DNA from: Hypnocyclicus thermotrophus
Lineage (GTDB): Bacteria > Fusobacteriota > Fusobacteriia > Fusobacteriales > Fusobacteriaceae
Assembly (NCBI RefSeq): GCF_004365575.1
Contig: NZ_SOBG01000001.1
Span: 372,001 to 436,000, forward strand
DNA: 64,000 bases
Reading direction: 5' to 3'
The stretch's first letter is position 1, and every line of letters starts with the position of its first letter. This document shows, piece by piece, positions 31,454 to 37,611 of this stretch. The translations under genes and the position numbers were made by a program. Below the pieces are notes generated by a model, which was not told where the DNA came from, made no database searches, and saw nothing but the letters and a program-made list of their open reading frames with translations.

Positions 31454-31482
31454 TTGAAAATATTATTTAATTTTGGTATAAT
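31454..31482 (+). promoter_or_regulatory. Promoter of the kinase-ATPase-GAF-SpoIIE gene
   Basis: TTGAAA (31454-31459), 17-base spacer, TATAAT (31477-31482), 38 bases before the start codon. Confidence 0.75.
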
Positions 31483-31519: not shown

Positions 31520-34500
31520 ATGGAAAACTACATTCTTGACAAAAAGATATATGAAAGTAATAAAACTTTAATATACTCTATATTTGATAAAACATCTAAT
31601 GAAAAAAAAATAATAAAAATTTTAAATAAAGAATATCCTACAAAATATGATATTGATAAATTTCTATATGAATATAATATTGGAAAATTTTTAAATATTG
31701 AAGGAATTATCAAATATTATGATTTAATAAAATATAAAAATTCTTATGCTATTATTGAAGAATATTTTAATGGTGAACCAATAAAAAATCTTTCTTCTTA
31801 TTCTCTAAAAATAATTTTATCTATTTTAATTGATATAACAAAAATTATTTCTAAATTACATAATCAAGAGATAATTCATAAAAATATAAATCCTTCTAAT
31901 ATTTTATGGAATAAAATTGATAATACAGTAAAAATAATTGACTTTGGAATTTCTGAAAGAAATATTTCCAATAAATATCTAAATATCGAAAATGTTATTG
32001 AAGGTACTTTAGCTTATATTTCACCTGAACAAACTGGTAAAATAGATAGAGAAATAAGTTATACCACTGATTTATACTCTTTAGGAATTACATTTTATGA
32101 ATTGCTTACTGGAAAGTTACCTTTTGAAACTGATAATCCTCTTGAAATGATTCACTGGCACATTGCTAAAAAACCTGAAGAATTACGAAAAATAAATCCT
32201 AAAATTCCAAAAGTATTATCAGATATAGTAATGAAACTATTAAATAAAATGCCTGAAGATAGATATCAATCTGCTAATGGTCTTCTTTTTGATTTAAAAA
32301 AATGTTTAGAATATTTTGACAAAAATACTATCAAAGAATTTATAATAGCTAAAAATGATTACAGTGATAAATTAATTATTAAAAATAAAATATATGGTCG
32401 AGAAAAAGAAATAAATTTATTATTAAATAGTATTAAAAAACTAGAAAACACTTCTTCTACTATTTTTGTTCTTGGTGAATCAGGGAGTGGAAAAACTTCT
32501 CTTATTAATAATGTTTTATCTAAATCTTTAAAAAAAGATACTTTTATATTAACAGGTAAATTTGAGCAATTTAAAAAAAATATACCCTATTTTGCTATTA
32601 CTCAAATATTAAAGAAATTATTAATTGATTTATCCAAATTAGATCAAGAACAATTTAATAATTTAACAATTTCATTAAAAAAAGAACTTGGAGATAATTT
32701 AAACTATTTAATTGAAATTTTACCTGAACTTTCTAAAACTTTTGATATACCAACAAGAATAAATGAAGATACTAAGATTGATAAAAACAATATTTTGAAA
32801 TACATATTAAAAAAATTTATTGATATTATTACTAACTTTAATTTAAAATTAATTATTTTTTTAGATGATTTACAATGGGCAGATGCTGCTTCGTTAAATT
32901 TTATAGAAATTCTAATAACTGAAATCAACAAAAATCTATTATTTATAGGAAGTTATAGAAATAATGAAGTAAATTCTATTCATTATTTGAATATTATTTT
33001 AAATAACATTAATAAATATAATTTAAATATAAAAGAAATCAAGTTAGATAAATTGAAAAAAAATAACATCTACGAATTTATTTCTGATAATATATATACC
33101 TCAAATAAAGATAAAAAAAATCAACTTTCTAAAATATTATATGAAAAAACTGAAGGGAACCCATTTTTTTTAAAGGAATTTATTATTTCACTTTATAATG
33201 AAAACGATATATATTTTAATTATGATAAATATGAATGGGAATATAATCTTGAAAATATAACAAAAAAAAGTATTACAGAAAATATTTTGAAAATTTTATA
33301 TAAAAAAATGAATAGATTAAATAAAAAATATTTTGAAATCTTAAAATACTGTGCTGCCCTTGGAAATGAATTTGAATTTAACAGCTTAAAAGCTTTAACA
33401 AATATACATGAAAATGAACTTCAAGAAATAATGAATTTTTTAATTAAAGAAAAATTTATTATTTTAATAAATGTAAATCAGTTTAATAATATTTTTAAAT
33501 TTTCTCACGATAAAATAGAGCAAGCTATAATTGATGCTATGTCTGAAAATGATTTATTAGAAAAGCATCTTCAAATTGCTGAATATTTAATAAATAATTT
33601 TGATATTCATAATGAAAATATTATTTTTGATATAGTTTTTCATTATAATAAATGTTTTAATATTATAAAAGAAGATAAAAAAATAAAAAATATTTTATAT
33701 TATAATTATCTTGCTGGAGAAAGAGCAATTAAGTCATTAGCTTTTGATCAAGCATATATATATTTTAATTTTTTTTATAACAATTTGAATATATATAACA
33801 TAAAAAGCGATAGTGAATTATTAGAAAAATTTTATACTAAATATATTGAAACATTATATTATACAAAAAAATACAATGAACTTGTAAAAATATTTAATAT
33901 AATAGATGCTTATACCGACGATTTCACCAAAAAATTATCTGCATATGAAATATATATTGATTATCTAATAGCTGTTAATGAATATAATAAAGCACTTGAA
34001 ATTGCTTTAAAATTTTTAGAAAAATTTGGGATAAATTTATCTAAAAACCCTTTAAAAATAACTATAATTACTAAATTATTAATATTACAGAATAGGATTA
34101 AAAAACAAGATTTCAATAATTTACTTCATAGAAAACCAGTAAATGATAATAAAATTAAAATAATTTTAAGAATTACTTCTAACATATTAGGAACTGCATA
34201 TGTTGCTAACCCAAATCTTTTTATTCTTTTAGTTCTTACTCAAATTGAACTTACTTTAAAATACGGTAACTCTAGTAGTGCTCCTGAAGCATTTTCATTA
34301 TTTGGTCTATTATTAATAGGTCTATTTAATAATTATGATATCGGATATAAGCTTGGAAAACTTGCATTAAACTTAATTAAAAATAATAATTATTCAGATT
34401 ACAAAGGAAGAGTTATTTTTTATAATACAAATTTTATTCTTCATTGGAAAGAAAATAGCATTAAAAACCTTAAATTAATCGATGATATTTATAAAATTTC

Positions 34501-36724
34501 TTTAGAAACTGGAGATTTGGAATATGCTGCTTGGTCAATATTTTTACGAGGTGAATATGAATTTTTTTCTAGAGGAAATATTAATAAAGCTATTATTTAT
34601 TTTAGCGATATAACAGAAAAAACATCAAAACTTAATCAAATCAAACAAAAAATTTATTCTACAATTTTTTTAATAACTACAAAATATTTATTGAATATAA
34701 TATCATATGATGAATTCAATAAAAAAATGTTTGATATTTTAAAAGGTTCTGAAATAGAAAATGATAAAATTGCTATATATTTTGTTTATTATCATCTTGC
34801 TGTAGTCAATTATCTATTTGAAGATTATAAAAAAGCTTTAACAAATATTAATTTAGCTGAAAAATATTTAGACAGTAATATGGCTAGTATGAATTATCCT
34901 ATGTTTTATTATTTTTCATCTTTAATTCATCTTAGAGCCTATAAAACTAATATAAAAAATAGTGTTATTCATAAAAAAATTAAAAAATATTTAAAACAAT
35001 TATCAATTTATGCTAAAAATTCTACAGATAATTATTTACATAAATATCTAATAGTTAAGGCTGAATATTACAACTATACTAATAATAAAAATGCTAAAGA
35101 TATCTATGAGGAGGCTCTATTCCATGTAAATCATAGTGAAAACATCTTAGATATTGCTATTATAAACGAACTTATAGCTAATTATTACTTTGAAAATAAA
35201 CATTATAGAATTAGTGATATTTATTTAAAAGATAGTTTTTATAATTATGACAAAATTGAGTTAAATAATAAAATTGAGTTATTAGAAAGAAGATTTAATC
35301 AAACTTTTTTAAAAGAGCACTATGATAATATTGAATTAAACACAACTATGAATACAGTCTCTTTTAACAATGATACGCTTGATATTGATTTTTTACTTAA
35401 AATATCTAAACTTTTTTCTTCTGAAATTATATTTTCTAAATTATTAGAAAATATAATGAAATACCTTATTGAAACTATTGGGACAGAAAAAGGATATATT
35501 TTAATAAAAAGAAATAATGAATTTTATATAGAAGCTAAAATAGATATTAATTATTCAGATATTGAACTTATCTCAATACCATTAAAAGAAAAATTAGAAG
35601 AAAATATATCTTATGATATAATAAATTATGTATTAAAAACTAAAAATTTATTTGTTTTTAATGAAGATAATAACGAATTTGATTTTGTCATTGATAGCTA
35701 TATAAAAGAAAATTTAGTAAAATTTCTTTTATGTATACCTTTAATTAATGAAGGTGAATTAATAGGATTAGTCTATTTAGAAAACAATGTTGTAGTAAAT
35801 AAAGTATCAAATATTCAAATAGAAATACTTAAAATGATATCATCACAATTAGCTGTATCTATTAAAAATTCTATTATATATGAAAAATTAAACAAATTAA
35901 ATAGAACTCTTGAACGAAAAGTTTTTGAACGAACTCTATCACTTGATGAAAAAAATAAAAAACTTACTGATAGTATAAATTATTCTAAAAAAATTCAAGA
36001 AAATGTTTTGCCTAAAGAATCTGATATCATAAAATTTACAAAAGATTCCATGCTTATTTATTTACCAAAAGATGTGATTTCCGGTGATTTTTATTGGTTA
36101 AAAGAAATTGAGGAGAAAAAAGTATTTATAGTATCTGATTGCACTGGTCATGGGGTTCCTGGTGCATTCTTATCGATGATTGGCTCTATTTTATTAGATA
36201 AGTTATTAATCAATAACTTACTTCTTAATCCATCTAAAATATTAAAACAACTTGATAATGATTTTAAAAAATATCTTAAACATAACAATACAAATAAAAA
36301 ATTTGAGCAAATAGATGGTATGGAAACAGCTATAGTTACTCTTTATCAAAATAAAATATATTTTTCTGGTGCTAAAAGAAATATTTATATTTTGAGAAAG
36401 GAAAATAACACTTGGAAGCTAAAAGAGATAAAGGGTAATAAATTCTCAATTGGTGGGGTCCATAGAAAAAATGAAAAAATATTTAATACGATTGAATTTG
36501 AAGTAATAAAAAATGATATTATATATATGTTTAGCGATGGCTTTGTAGATCAAAATAATAATAAAAATGAAAAGTATGGTATAAATAGATTTGAAAATCT
36601 TATTTTAAATATAGCCGATAAAGATTTAGCAGTTCAAAAAACATTAATTTTACAAGAATTATCTACTTTTATGAAAGATACTTCTCAAAGAGATGATATC
36701 ACAATACTTGCATTTAAGATATAA
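31520..36724 (+). CDS. Multi-domain signalling protein: (pseudo)kinase - AAA ATPase - TPR-like - GAF - SpoIIE/PP2C phosphatase
   Basis: A 1734-aa cytoplasmic protein. Residues ~1-270 are a Ser/Thr kinase fold: VAIK-type lysine in IIKIL, IDFGIS (D141) and GTLAYISPEQTGK. The catalytic loop reads HKNINPSN (residues 120-127), with Asn122 where the catalytic Asp should be, so kinase activity is doubtful. Residues ~290-560 are an AAA-type ATPase (Walker A GESGSGKTS near 319, Walker B IIFLDDLQWAD near 449). A long helical, TPR-like region follows (~650-1270), then GAF (~1287-1450), a coiled coil and a SpoIIE-type PP2C phosphatase (SGDFYWLKE, SDCTGHGVPGAFLSMIG, FSDGFVDQ). AGGAGG precedes the ATG. The plan resembles the multi-sensor kinases of cyanobacteria and Leptospira. 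Its targets are probably an anti-sigma-antagonist or a c-di-GMP/stress pathway (inference). Confidence 0.88.
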   Translation: MENYILDKKIYESNKTLIYSIFDKTSNEKKIIKILNKEYPTKYDIDKFLYEYNIGKFLNIEGIIKYYDLIKYKNSYAIIEEYFNGEPIKNLSSYSLKIILSILIDITKIISKLHNQEIIHKNINPSNILWNKIDNTVKIIDFGISERNISNKYLNIENVIEGTLAYISPEQTGKIDREISYTTDLYSLGITFYELLTGKLPFETDNPLEMIHWHIAKKPEELRKINPKIPKVLSDIVMKLLNKMPEDRYQSANGLLFDLKKCLEYFDKNTIKEFIIAKNDYSDKLIIKNKIYGREKEINLLLNSIKKLENTSSTIFVLGESGSGKTSLINNVLSKSLKKDTFILTGKFEQFKKNIPYFAITQILKKLLIDLSKLDQEQFNNLTISLKKELGDNLNYLIEILPELSKTFDIPTRINEDTKIDKNNILKYILKKFIDIITNFNLKLIIFLDDLQWADAASLNFIEILITEINKNLLFIGSYRNNEVNSIHYLNIILNNINKYNLNIKEIKLDKLKKNNIYEFISDNIYTSNKDKKNQLSKILYEKTEGNPFFLKEFIISLYNENDIYFNYDKYEWEYNLENITKKSITENILKILYKKMNRLNKKYFEILKYCAALGNEFEFNSLKALTNIHENELQEIMNFLIKEKFIILINVNQFNNIFKFSHDKIEQAIIDAMSENDLLEKHLQIAEYLINNFDIHNENIIFDIVFHYNKCFNIIKEDKKIKNILYYNYLAGERAIKSLAFDQAYIYFNFFYNNLNIYNIKSDSELLEKFYTKYIETLYYTKKYNELVKIFNIIDAYTDDFTKKLSAYEIYIDYLIAVNEYNKALEIALKFLEKFGINLSKNPLKITIITKLLILQNRIKKQDFNNLLHRKPVNDNKIKIILRITSNILGTAYVANPNLFILLVLTQIELTLKYGNSSSAPEAFSLFGLLLIGLFNNYDIGYKLGKLALNLIKNNNYSDYKGRVIFYNTNFILHWKENSIKNLKLIDDIYKISLETGDLEYAAWSIFLRGEYEFFSRGNINKAIIYFSDITEKTSKLNQIKQKIYSTIFLITTKYLLNIISYDEFNKKMFDILKGSEIENDKIAIYFVYYHLAVVNYLFEDYKKALTNINLAEKYLDSNMASMNYPMFYYFSSLIHLRAYKTNIKNSVIHKKIKKYLKQLSIYAKNSTDNYLHKYLIVKAEYYNYTNNKNAKDIYEEALFHVNHSENILDIAIINELIANYYFENKHYRISDIYLKDSFYNYDKIELNNKIELLERRFNQTFLKEHYDNIELNTTMNTVSFNNDTLDIDFLLKISKLFSSEIIFSKLLENIMKYLIETIGTEKGYILIKRNNEFYIEAKIDINYSDIELISIPLKEKLEENISYDIINYVLKTKNLFVFNEDNNEFDFVIDSYIKENLVKFLLCIPLINEGELIGLVYLENNVVVNKVSNIQIEILKMISSQLAVSIKNSIIYEKLNKLNRTLERKVFERTLSLDEKNKKLTDSINYSKKIQENVLPKESDIIKFTKDSMLIYLPKDVISGDFYWLKEIEEKKVFIVSDCTGHGVPGAFLSMIGSILLDKLLINNLLLNPSKILKQLDNDFKKYLKHNNTNKKFEQIDGMETAIVTLYQNKIYFSGAKRNIYILRKENNTWKLKEIKGNKFSIGGVHRKNEKIFNTIEFEVIKNDIIYMFSDGFVDQNNNKNEKYGINRFENLILNIADKDLAVQKTLILQELSTFMKDTSQRDDITILAFKI

Positions 36725-36771: not shown

Positions 36772-37611
36772 ATGAAAAAAATTAGAGTAACTGTTCCCGA
36801 AGATATATACAGACTTATTAAAAATGATATAGAAGATTTTGGCATAAATAACAATAAACTCTGTAATTTTATTTTAGATAAATATAAATATAAACGTGAA
36901 AATGAAGATTTATTAAAATCTCAAGGAAAATCACTTAGAAAAATTATTCAATTTGACTTAAATCTAAAAAATAAAGAAATTTATTATAATATATTACGAA
37001 TAAATAAAGTAGCGGTAGAAGCAGAATTTTTTAGAGAATTATTTAAATATTATTGTTCCAATTTTAAATATAAACGCGAACTTTTTGTTTTTTCTGATTT
37101 AGTACAAAAAATTATTTTAGCTATTGAAAATAAAAATAAAATTAAAATTAAATATAAGAAAAAAATAAAAATAATTGAGCCCTATTTTATCAAACGTGAT
37201 GAACAAGGTGAAGAAAATTATCTGTTTTGTTACTGCTGTACTTCGAAAGAATATAAAAATTATAAATTAAAAAATATAGATTTTATATCTGAACTCTCTG
37301 AAAAAGTATTAAGACGTGATAAAAAATATATTGATTCTATTAGAAAAAATTTTGATCCATTTTTATCACATGGAAAAATAGTAAAAATAAAACTTACAAA
37401 AGAAGGTGAAAGTCTTTTAAAAACGTATACAGTACATAGACCAAAACTTTTAAGTAAAAATAATGATATTTTCGAATTCGAAGCCTCTACAGAAAAAGCT
37501 TTTCTATATTTTAGACAGTTTTTATCTGAAGTTATAATATTAGAACCTCTTGAACTTCGAGAAAAAATAAAAAATTACTTAATTAATACTTTAAAAAATT
37601 ATATAGATTAA
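36772..37611 (+). CDS. RHH-like / WYL-domain-like transcriptional regulator
   Basis: A 279-aa protein. The N-terminus (KKIRVTVPEDIYRLIKNDIEDFGINNNKLCNFILDKY) resembles a ribbon-helix-helix DNA-binding unit. The middle (KNKIKIKYKKKIKIIEPYFIKRDEQGEENYLFCYC...YKLKNIDFI) follows the WYL pattern, with the C-terminal WCX-like part EASTEKAFLYFRQFLSEVIILEPLELREKIKNYL. WYL domains bind small ligands or nucleic acid ends. It starts 47 bases after the kinase-SpoIIE gene in the same direction without an obvious terminator between, so it may be that system's transcriptional output. Assignment by motif only. Confidence 0.65.
   Translation: MKKIRVTVPEDIYRLIKNDIEDFGINNNKLCNFILDKYKYKRENEDLLKSQGKSLRKIIQFDLNLKNKEIYYNILRINKVAVEAEFFRELFKYYCSNFKYKRELFVFSDLVQKIILAIENKNKIKIKYKKKIKIIEPYFIKRDEQGEENYLFCYCCTSKEYKNYKLKNIDFISELSEKVLRRDKKYIDSIRKNFDPFLSHGKIVKIKLTKEGESLLKTYTVHRPKLLSKNNDIFEFEASTEKAFLYFRQFLSEVIILEPLELREKIKNYLINTLKNYID

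Follow-up and report, generated by a model that had tools for sequence, protein, structure and literature searches.

A gene in the window (the whole analysed stretch of 64,000 nucleotides of Hypnocyclicus thermotrophus DNA) encodes a giant protein in which a CP1-type pseudokinase/COG3899-type ATPase chassis is joined to a SiaA-type PP2C phosphatase, and on balance we favour the reading that this output acts on SiaC and, through it, on a GGDEF protein. SiaC is a small phosphoprotein that switches on second-messenger enzymes. It is the likely target because the phosphatase falls into the SiaA clade, giant genes of relatives are linked to siaBC, and the genome has its own siaBCD genes without siaA. 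The original prediction had named no target for the phosphatase; the clade, the metal residues and the siaBC neighbours in relatives now allow SiaC to be proposed.

Domain Anatomy of the Giant Protein

The features of the gene and its surroundings are the following:
31454..31482, + strand: promoter-like TTGAAA-17-TATAAT, 11/12 matches, the top promoter-like match of the region
31520..36724, + strand: giant protein gene, 1734 aa; pseudokinase, COG3899-type ATPase/TPR, GAF, SiaA-type PP2C
31568..32269, + strand: protein-kinase-like domain, residues 17-250 (Pfam Pkinase, 120 bits)
31883..31885, + strand: Asn122 replacing the catalytic Asp, codon AAT, loop HKNINPSN
32390..32947, + strand: AAA_16 ATPase domain, residues 291-476 (Pfam, 83 bits)
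35438..35863, + strand: GAF domain, residues 1307-1448 (Pfam, 38 bits)
36086..36721, + strand: SiaA-type PP2C/SpoIIE phosphatase core, from metal-ligand Asp1523 (Pfam, trees, metal residues)
36772..37611, + strand: WYL-like regulator gene (WYL 20.5 bits, cut-off 21.8), probably outside the system

The ATG start of the giant gene is preceded by AGGAGG. Promoter-like matches in the region overall show no excess (77 vs 71 in shuffled sequences). The GC content of the DNA is low (23.7%).

The Walker A motif GESGSGKTS (from residue 319) and the Walker B motif IIFLDDLQWAD (from residue 445) are intact, and the Pfam SpoIIE match covers residues 1535-1733 (64 bits). The claim that the SpoIIE and AAA motifs are intact was thus borne out, the PP2C metal aspartates being kept as well. 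The predicted anatomy of pseudokinase, ATPase, GAF and PP2C likewise stood in both sequence and fold model, and it is from these that we infer the inactivity of the kinase.

In the available part of PMC12599244, CP1 bacterial pseudokinases are described as having a kinase-like domain linked to a COG3899 ATPase, and about 40% of CP1 proteins are degenerate and called pseudokinases. The window protein resembles them in its kinase-like domain, predicted ATPase and GAF-type sensors, but differs in its PP2C output: that part of the paper holds no PP2C/SpoIIE or Sia link, and the term SpoIIE is absent from the main text as available. A CP1 pseudokinase has lost at least one of the Lys, the HRD Asp and the DFG Asp, and here Asn122 stands for such a loss, with Lys33 and Asp141 kept. 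The order of the domains is Pkinase and then AAA_16, and the relatives align along the whole chassis; we therefore call the protein CP1-type or COG3899-type by domain order and alignment, not by the published CP1 or COG3899 models. The HstK-type Ser/Thr-His kinases of cyanobacteria also have an N-terminal Ser/Thr kinase domain, but their output is a histidine kinase instead of PP2C (available part of PMC2176072). No paper joining pseudokinase, SpoIIE, AAA ATPase and GAF was found in the open-licence PubMed Central literature. The available part of PMC12599244 states that hardly anything is known about what CP1 pseudokinases do in the bacterium under discussion there; here one CP1-like protein gains a named, testable candidate substrate and pathway.

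Loss of the Catalytic Aspartate

The sequence confirmed that the catalytic loop reads HKNINPSN, with AAT and not GAT at codon 122. The ATP lysine and the DFG motif remain, as claimed (K33 and D141), together with E51 and N127. The AlphaFold2 model of the kinase domain shows a normal fold (pLDDT 92.1, pTM 0.90), and its closest solved folds are PknB structures. Asn122 and this confident PknB-like model indicate that the catalytic base is gone from an otherwise normal kinase fold. Judging by sequence and model, the domain is a predicted pseudokinase, which would not transfer phosphate.

To place this change, we assembled a set of 160 unique family sequences that cover a kinase region, the window protein among them: 86 from a scan of genome contigs, 70 from the class of a Leptospiraceae metagenome-assembled genome and 4 from the window's order. 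The class search scored at most 10 candidates per genome, so its chassis counts are lower bounds, and L004 (HLNLNPKN, DTG) does not figure in the set, as the kinase N-lobe is missing from its frame. The catalytic Asp is present in 147 of the 160 sequences and replaced in 13 (by N in 4, A, S and R in 2 each, C, E and L in 1 each). Asn122 thus departs from a conserved column, as do 12 other sequences, and the loss is not unique to the window protein, although most chassis relatives, which are abundant in cyanobacteria, keep the Asp. Among five residues tested, it is the only one missing in the window protein, L044 and L105. The question raised earlier, whether Asn is shared in a kinase phylogeny, is answered in the negative, since the four Asn sequences are scattered on the trees. 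These were hand-thinned (115 of 160 rows for the ATPase domain, 76 for the longer chassis); on the former, the Asp state changes at least 11 times. On the latter, the window protein pairs with L002 (96 SH-aLRT), a degenerate kinase with a histidine-kinase output.

HER3, a kinase with Asn at the catalytic-Asp site, retains weak activity. This precedent, the retained Lys, Glu, Asn and DFG and the intact fold leave some room for an active or merely weakened chassis kinase. Asn122 was also seen in one genome only and the sister genome G001 has no giant gene, so codon 122 may hold a base-call error. We nevertheless consider both unlikely, as the closest chassis relative, L002, lacks the Asp as well and about 11 separate changes are spread across the family. 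It is very unlikely that the giant gene is a recently acquired, functionless gene in decay: it sits on a long branch in trees, and the chassis occurs in 5 of 98 genomes of the phylum and was not found in the sister species, but 1734 codons stay open with the ATPase and PP2C residues intact.

The same chassis with histidine-kinase or GGDEF outputs was seen in L002, L003, L073 and L105, and three of these four (L002, L073, L105) have lost the catalytic Asp. When outputs were typed by single-sequence phmmer, the results were weak, 106 of 161 rows being left without assignment.

The Phosphatase Domain Belongs to the SiaA Clade

The best solved-structure match of the C-terminal 280 residues is Pseudomonas aeruginosa SiaA (6k4e, 7e-29). 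The NCBIfam SiaA model gives 160 bits over residues 1455-1734, under its full-length cut-off of 700; as the PP2C part alone matches, the protein is SiaA-type by domain and not a SiaA ortholog.

The phosphatase tree was built from 59 of 63 SpoIIE rows, one duplicate and three partial rows being left out. It holds a SiaA clade of 12 rows (support 100/100) that includes the window PP2C, the paralogs C11 and C6 of the same genome, the C6-type protein of the sister genome, P. aeruginosa SiaA, three free-standing sia-operon phosphatases and four leptospiral genes. Within it, the window PP2C groups with the leptospiral siaBC-linked phosphatases (93/93), and the split from the non-SiaA SpoIIE domains is 100/100. 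All SiaA metal residues tested are kept in the window PP2C, D534 as Glu: C475, D/E534 and D604 of SiaA correspond to C, E and D. Cys475 and Asp/Glu534 are found in 12/12 clade members and Asp604 in 10/12, whereas position 475 is V/A/I and position 534 is T/S in all 50 non-clade rows, 48 of which have Glu at 604. The available part of PMC7647112 describes these three positions as lying at or near the SiaA metal site.

A search of 395 genomes of another phylum gave nine SiaA-type matches, with Cys475 and Asp/Glu534 in 9/9 and Asp604 in 8/9; the smaller alignment that includes them misplaces the window's 534 column to Gly. None of the nine has a chassis-length frame. In five, siaB and siaC are adjacent, and four show no SiaC within 1.5 kb flanks, which speaks against a SiaC pairing. 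In the phosphatase tree, siaC lies close by in 9 of 11 clade rows with loci, all except the giant gene and C11, which both belong to the window's genome, and in 2 of 47 other rows, both of them effector genes whose sia operons also include a clade phosphatase; in a few of the loci counted, the flank was too short to tell.

With SiaA as described in the available parts of PMC7647112 and PMC8457831, the window protein shares the PP2C clade, C475 and the third-metal residues, and its genome has SiaB, SiaC and GGDEF partners. It differs in its input, a giant pseudokinase-ATPase-GAF chassis outside a sia operon. The open-licence PubMed Central literature yielded no paper joining SiaA phosphatase/SpoIIE with AAA.

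SpoIIE/RsbU phosphatases classically act on STAS anti-anti-sigma proteins. The earlier advice to look for STAS partners did turn up eight STAS matches in the genome, and STAS genes occur in six loci with other chassis genes (L179, L183, L192, L193, L198, L199). A STAS target is nevertheless improbable, because the window PP2C is firmly inside the SiaA clade and SpoIIE domains outside that clade differ at the third-metal site; SiaC is proposed instead.

Sia Partners in the Genome and the Proposed Signal Flow

About 40 kb from the giant gene, on the same contig, a single operon of the window's genome (C1:361493-363168) combines siaB and siaC with a GGDEF gene and has no siaA. The SiaB encoded there scores above the NCBIfam subfamily cut-off (126 vs 85), while SiaC (126 of 150) and SiaD (179 of 290) score under the equivalog cut-offs; the phosphorylated-threonine motif YLNTSS is kept in SiaC. 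Among 98 genomes of the phylum, SiaC was found in two, both of the window's genus. The sister G001 (93% complete) encodes a single SiaC, of the C6 type; siaBCD and the giant gene were not found in it.

Although siaB and siaC do not adjoin the window gene, they do so in its leptospiral relatives. In L174, L173 and L176 (the class of Leptospiraceae), siaB, siaC and a class III cyclase gene come after a similar giant gene, and L234 has the same siaB-siaC-cyclase series after a phosphatase gene that is truncated by the end of the contig, its cyclase being called by similar N-terminal sequence and not by Pfam. The catalytic Asp is retained in all three complete siaBC-linked chassis from leptospiral genomes, so the kinase loss is not tied to the SiaA-type output.

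We propose the following signal flow, each step of which we infer. The chassis would sense a signal, with the pseudokinase binding nucleotide without phosphate transfer as an allosteric switch, and the ligand and ATP state would be relayed by the ATPase/TPR and GAF parts to PP2C. The activated PP2C would dephosphorylate SiaC at its threonine (YLNTSS). In this state, SiaC would dock on the SiaD-like GGDEF protein of the siaBCD operon, at its stalk, and raise c-di-GMP. With SiaB as the kinase opposing PP2C on SiaC, activity of the chassis kinase would not be required.

Some observations speak against the pairing. If anything, the SiaB and SiaC trees lean against an inheritance parallel to that of the phosphatases, the SiaC of the C1 operon grouping with that of P. 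aeruginosa (85/74) and not with leptospiral SiaC. The genome also encodes a second orphan SiaA-like phosphatase, C11 (HAMP and PP2C, 655 aa), so the pairing of the giant gene with siaBCD is unproven. C11 might be the siaBCD phosphatase, in which case the window protein would have the C6 SiaC or some other target; C11 has the HAMP-PP2C arrangement and a higher SiaA score (235 vs 160 bits), and it has no siaC beside it either. We regard this as rather unlikely, since the tree places C11 beside the C6 phosphatase (96/94) and the window phosphatase with the leptospiral siaBC-linked set (93/93); moreover, both may feed one SiaC.

A second sia-like unit lies at L125:5158-8638 (G000:C6:102158-105638) and comprises a stalk-HATPase protein, a SiaA-type phosphatase and SiaC; it is also present in the sister genome (L238:3108-6583). 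A SiaB gene was not found at the L125 unit, where the HATPase protein may stand in for SiaB or be the effector. Three genomes have a SiaC family member with YFNTA instead of YLNTS and no SiaB nearby (L237:4436-4816, L258:1486-1866, L264:1486-1866).

Origin of the Fusion

While the phosphatase domains of the window and leptospiral genes do group, their chassis do not: the AU test, resting on one quick LG+G4 tree, rejects the window chassis and the three complete leptospiral siaBC-linked chassis as one clade (p 0.0137). Common ancestry of these chassis is therefore disfavoured. Two independent fusion events are probable; these, or else a swap of domains, would be the simplest reading of the sequences.

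The Neighbouring WYL-like Gene

The giant protein had been predicted to be coupled to an RHH-WYL-like regulator. We rejected this coupling, as relatives of the WYL gene (up to 64% identical) occur in 62 of 98 genomes of the phylum vs 5 of 98 for the chassis, and their neighbours differ among the five loci inspected. The two genes are 47 nt apart, no terminator-like site was found between them while one is present after P0002, and they may share a transcript here.

A Putative SiaC Docking Motif and Effector Diversity

According to the available part of PMC8457831, K77, V78, R80, I81, S82, D83 and Q86 of SiaD are among the contacts. A SiaD-like stalk motif is present in 10/10 SiaC-neighbour effectors, near residues 48-75, with the pattern composed after the effectors were inspected and chance matches of about 4 in 34,220 aa. 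Examples are KLIKINDIQQ (own GGDEF), KLMKIGDSTQ (cyclases) and KLTALGDKFQ (own HATPase). The motif was then seen in 3/9 of the other-phylum SiaA-type loci, in one of them twice with a spacing of 32, like the SiaD sites S50/Q54 and S82/Q86.

It is a tentative suggestion, a little short of an even chance in our judgement, that SiaA-type phosphatases were acquired by the chassis on two or more occasions and that SiaC is a general adaptor hub, with one stalk docking motif, GGDEF, cyclase, HATPase and PP2C effectors, and interchangeable phosphatase inputs. The leptospiral operons suggest that SiaC partner switching is tied to cyclases beyond diguanylate cyclases, and cAMP or cGMP is a possible output of SiaC there through the class III enzymes. 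No paper on SiaC with adenylate cyclase in Leptospira was found in the open-licence PubMed Central literature.

The cyclases (L174:10465-11946, L173:1354-2820, L176:10282-11745, L234:1840-3294) have a SiaC-docking-like stalk and stand at the end of siaBC operons. Two further SiaC neighbours (L232:2349-3389, L233:5563-6525) combine the stalk motif with a second, non-SiaA SpoIIE phosphatase domain and possibly form a phosphatase cascade.
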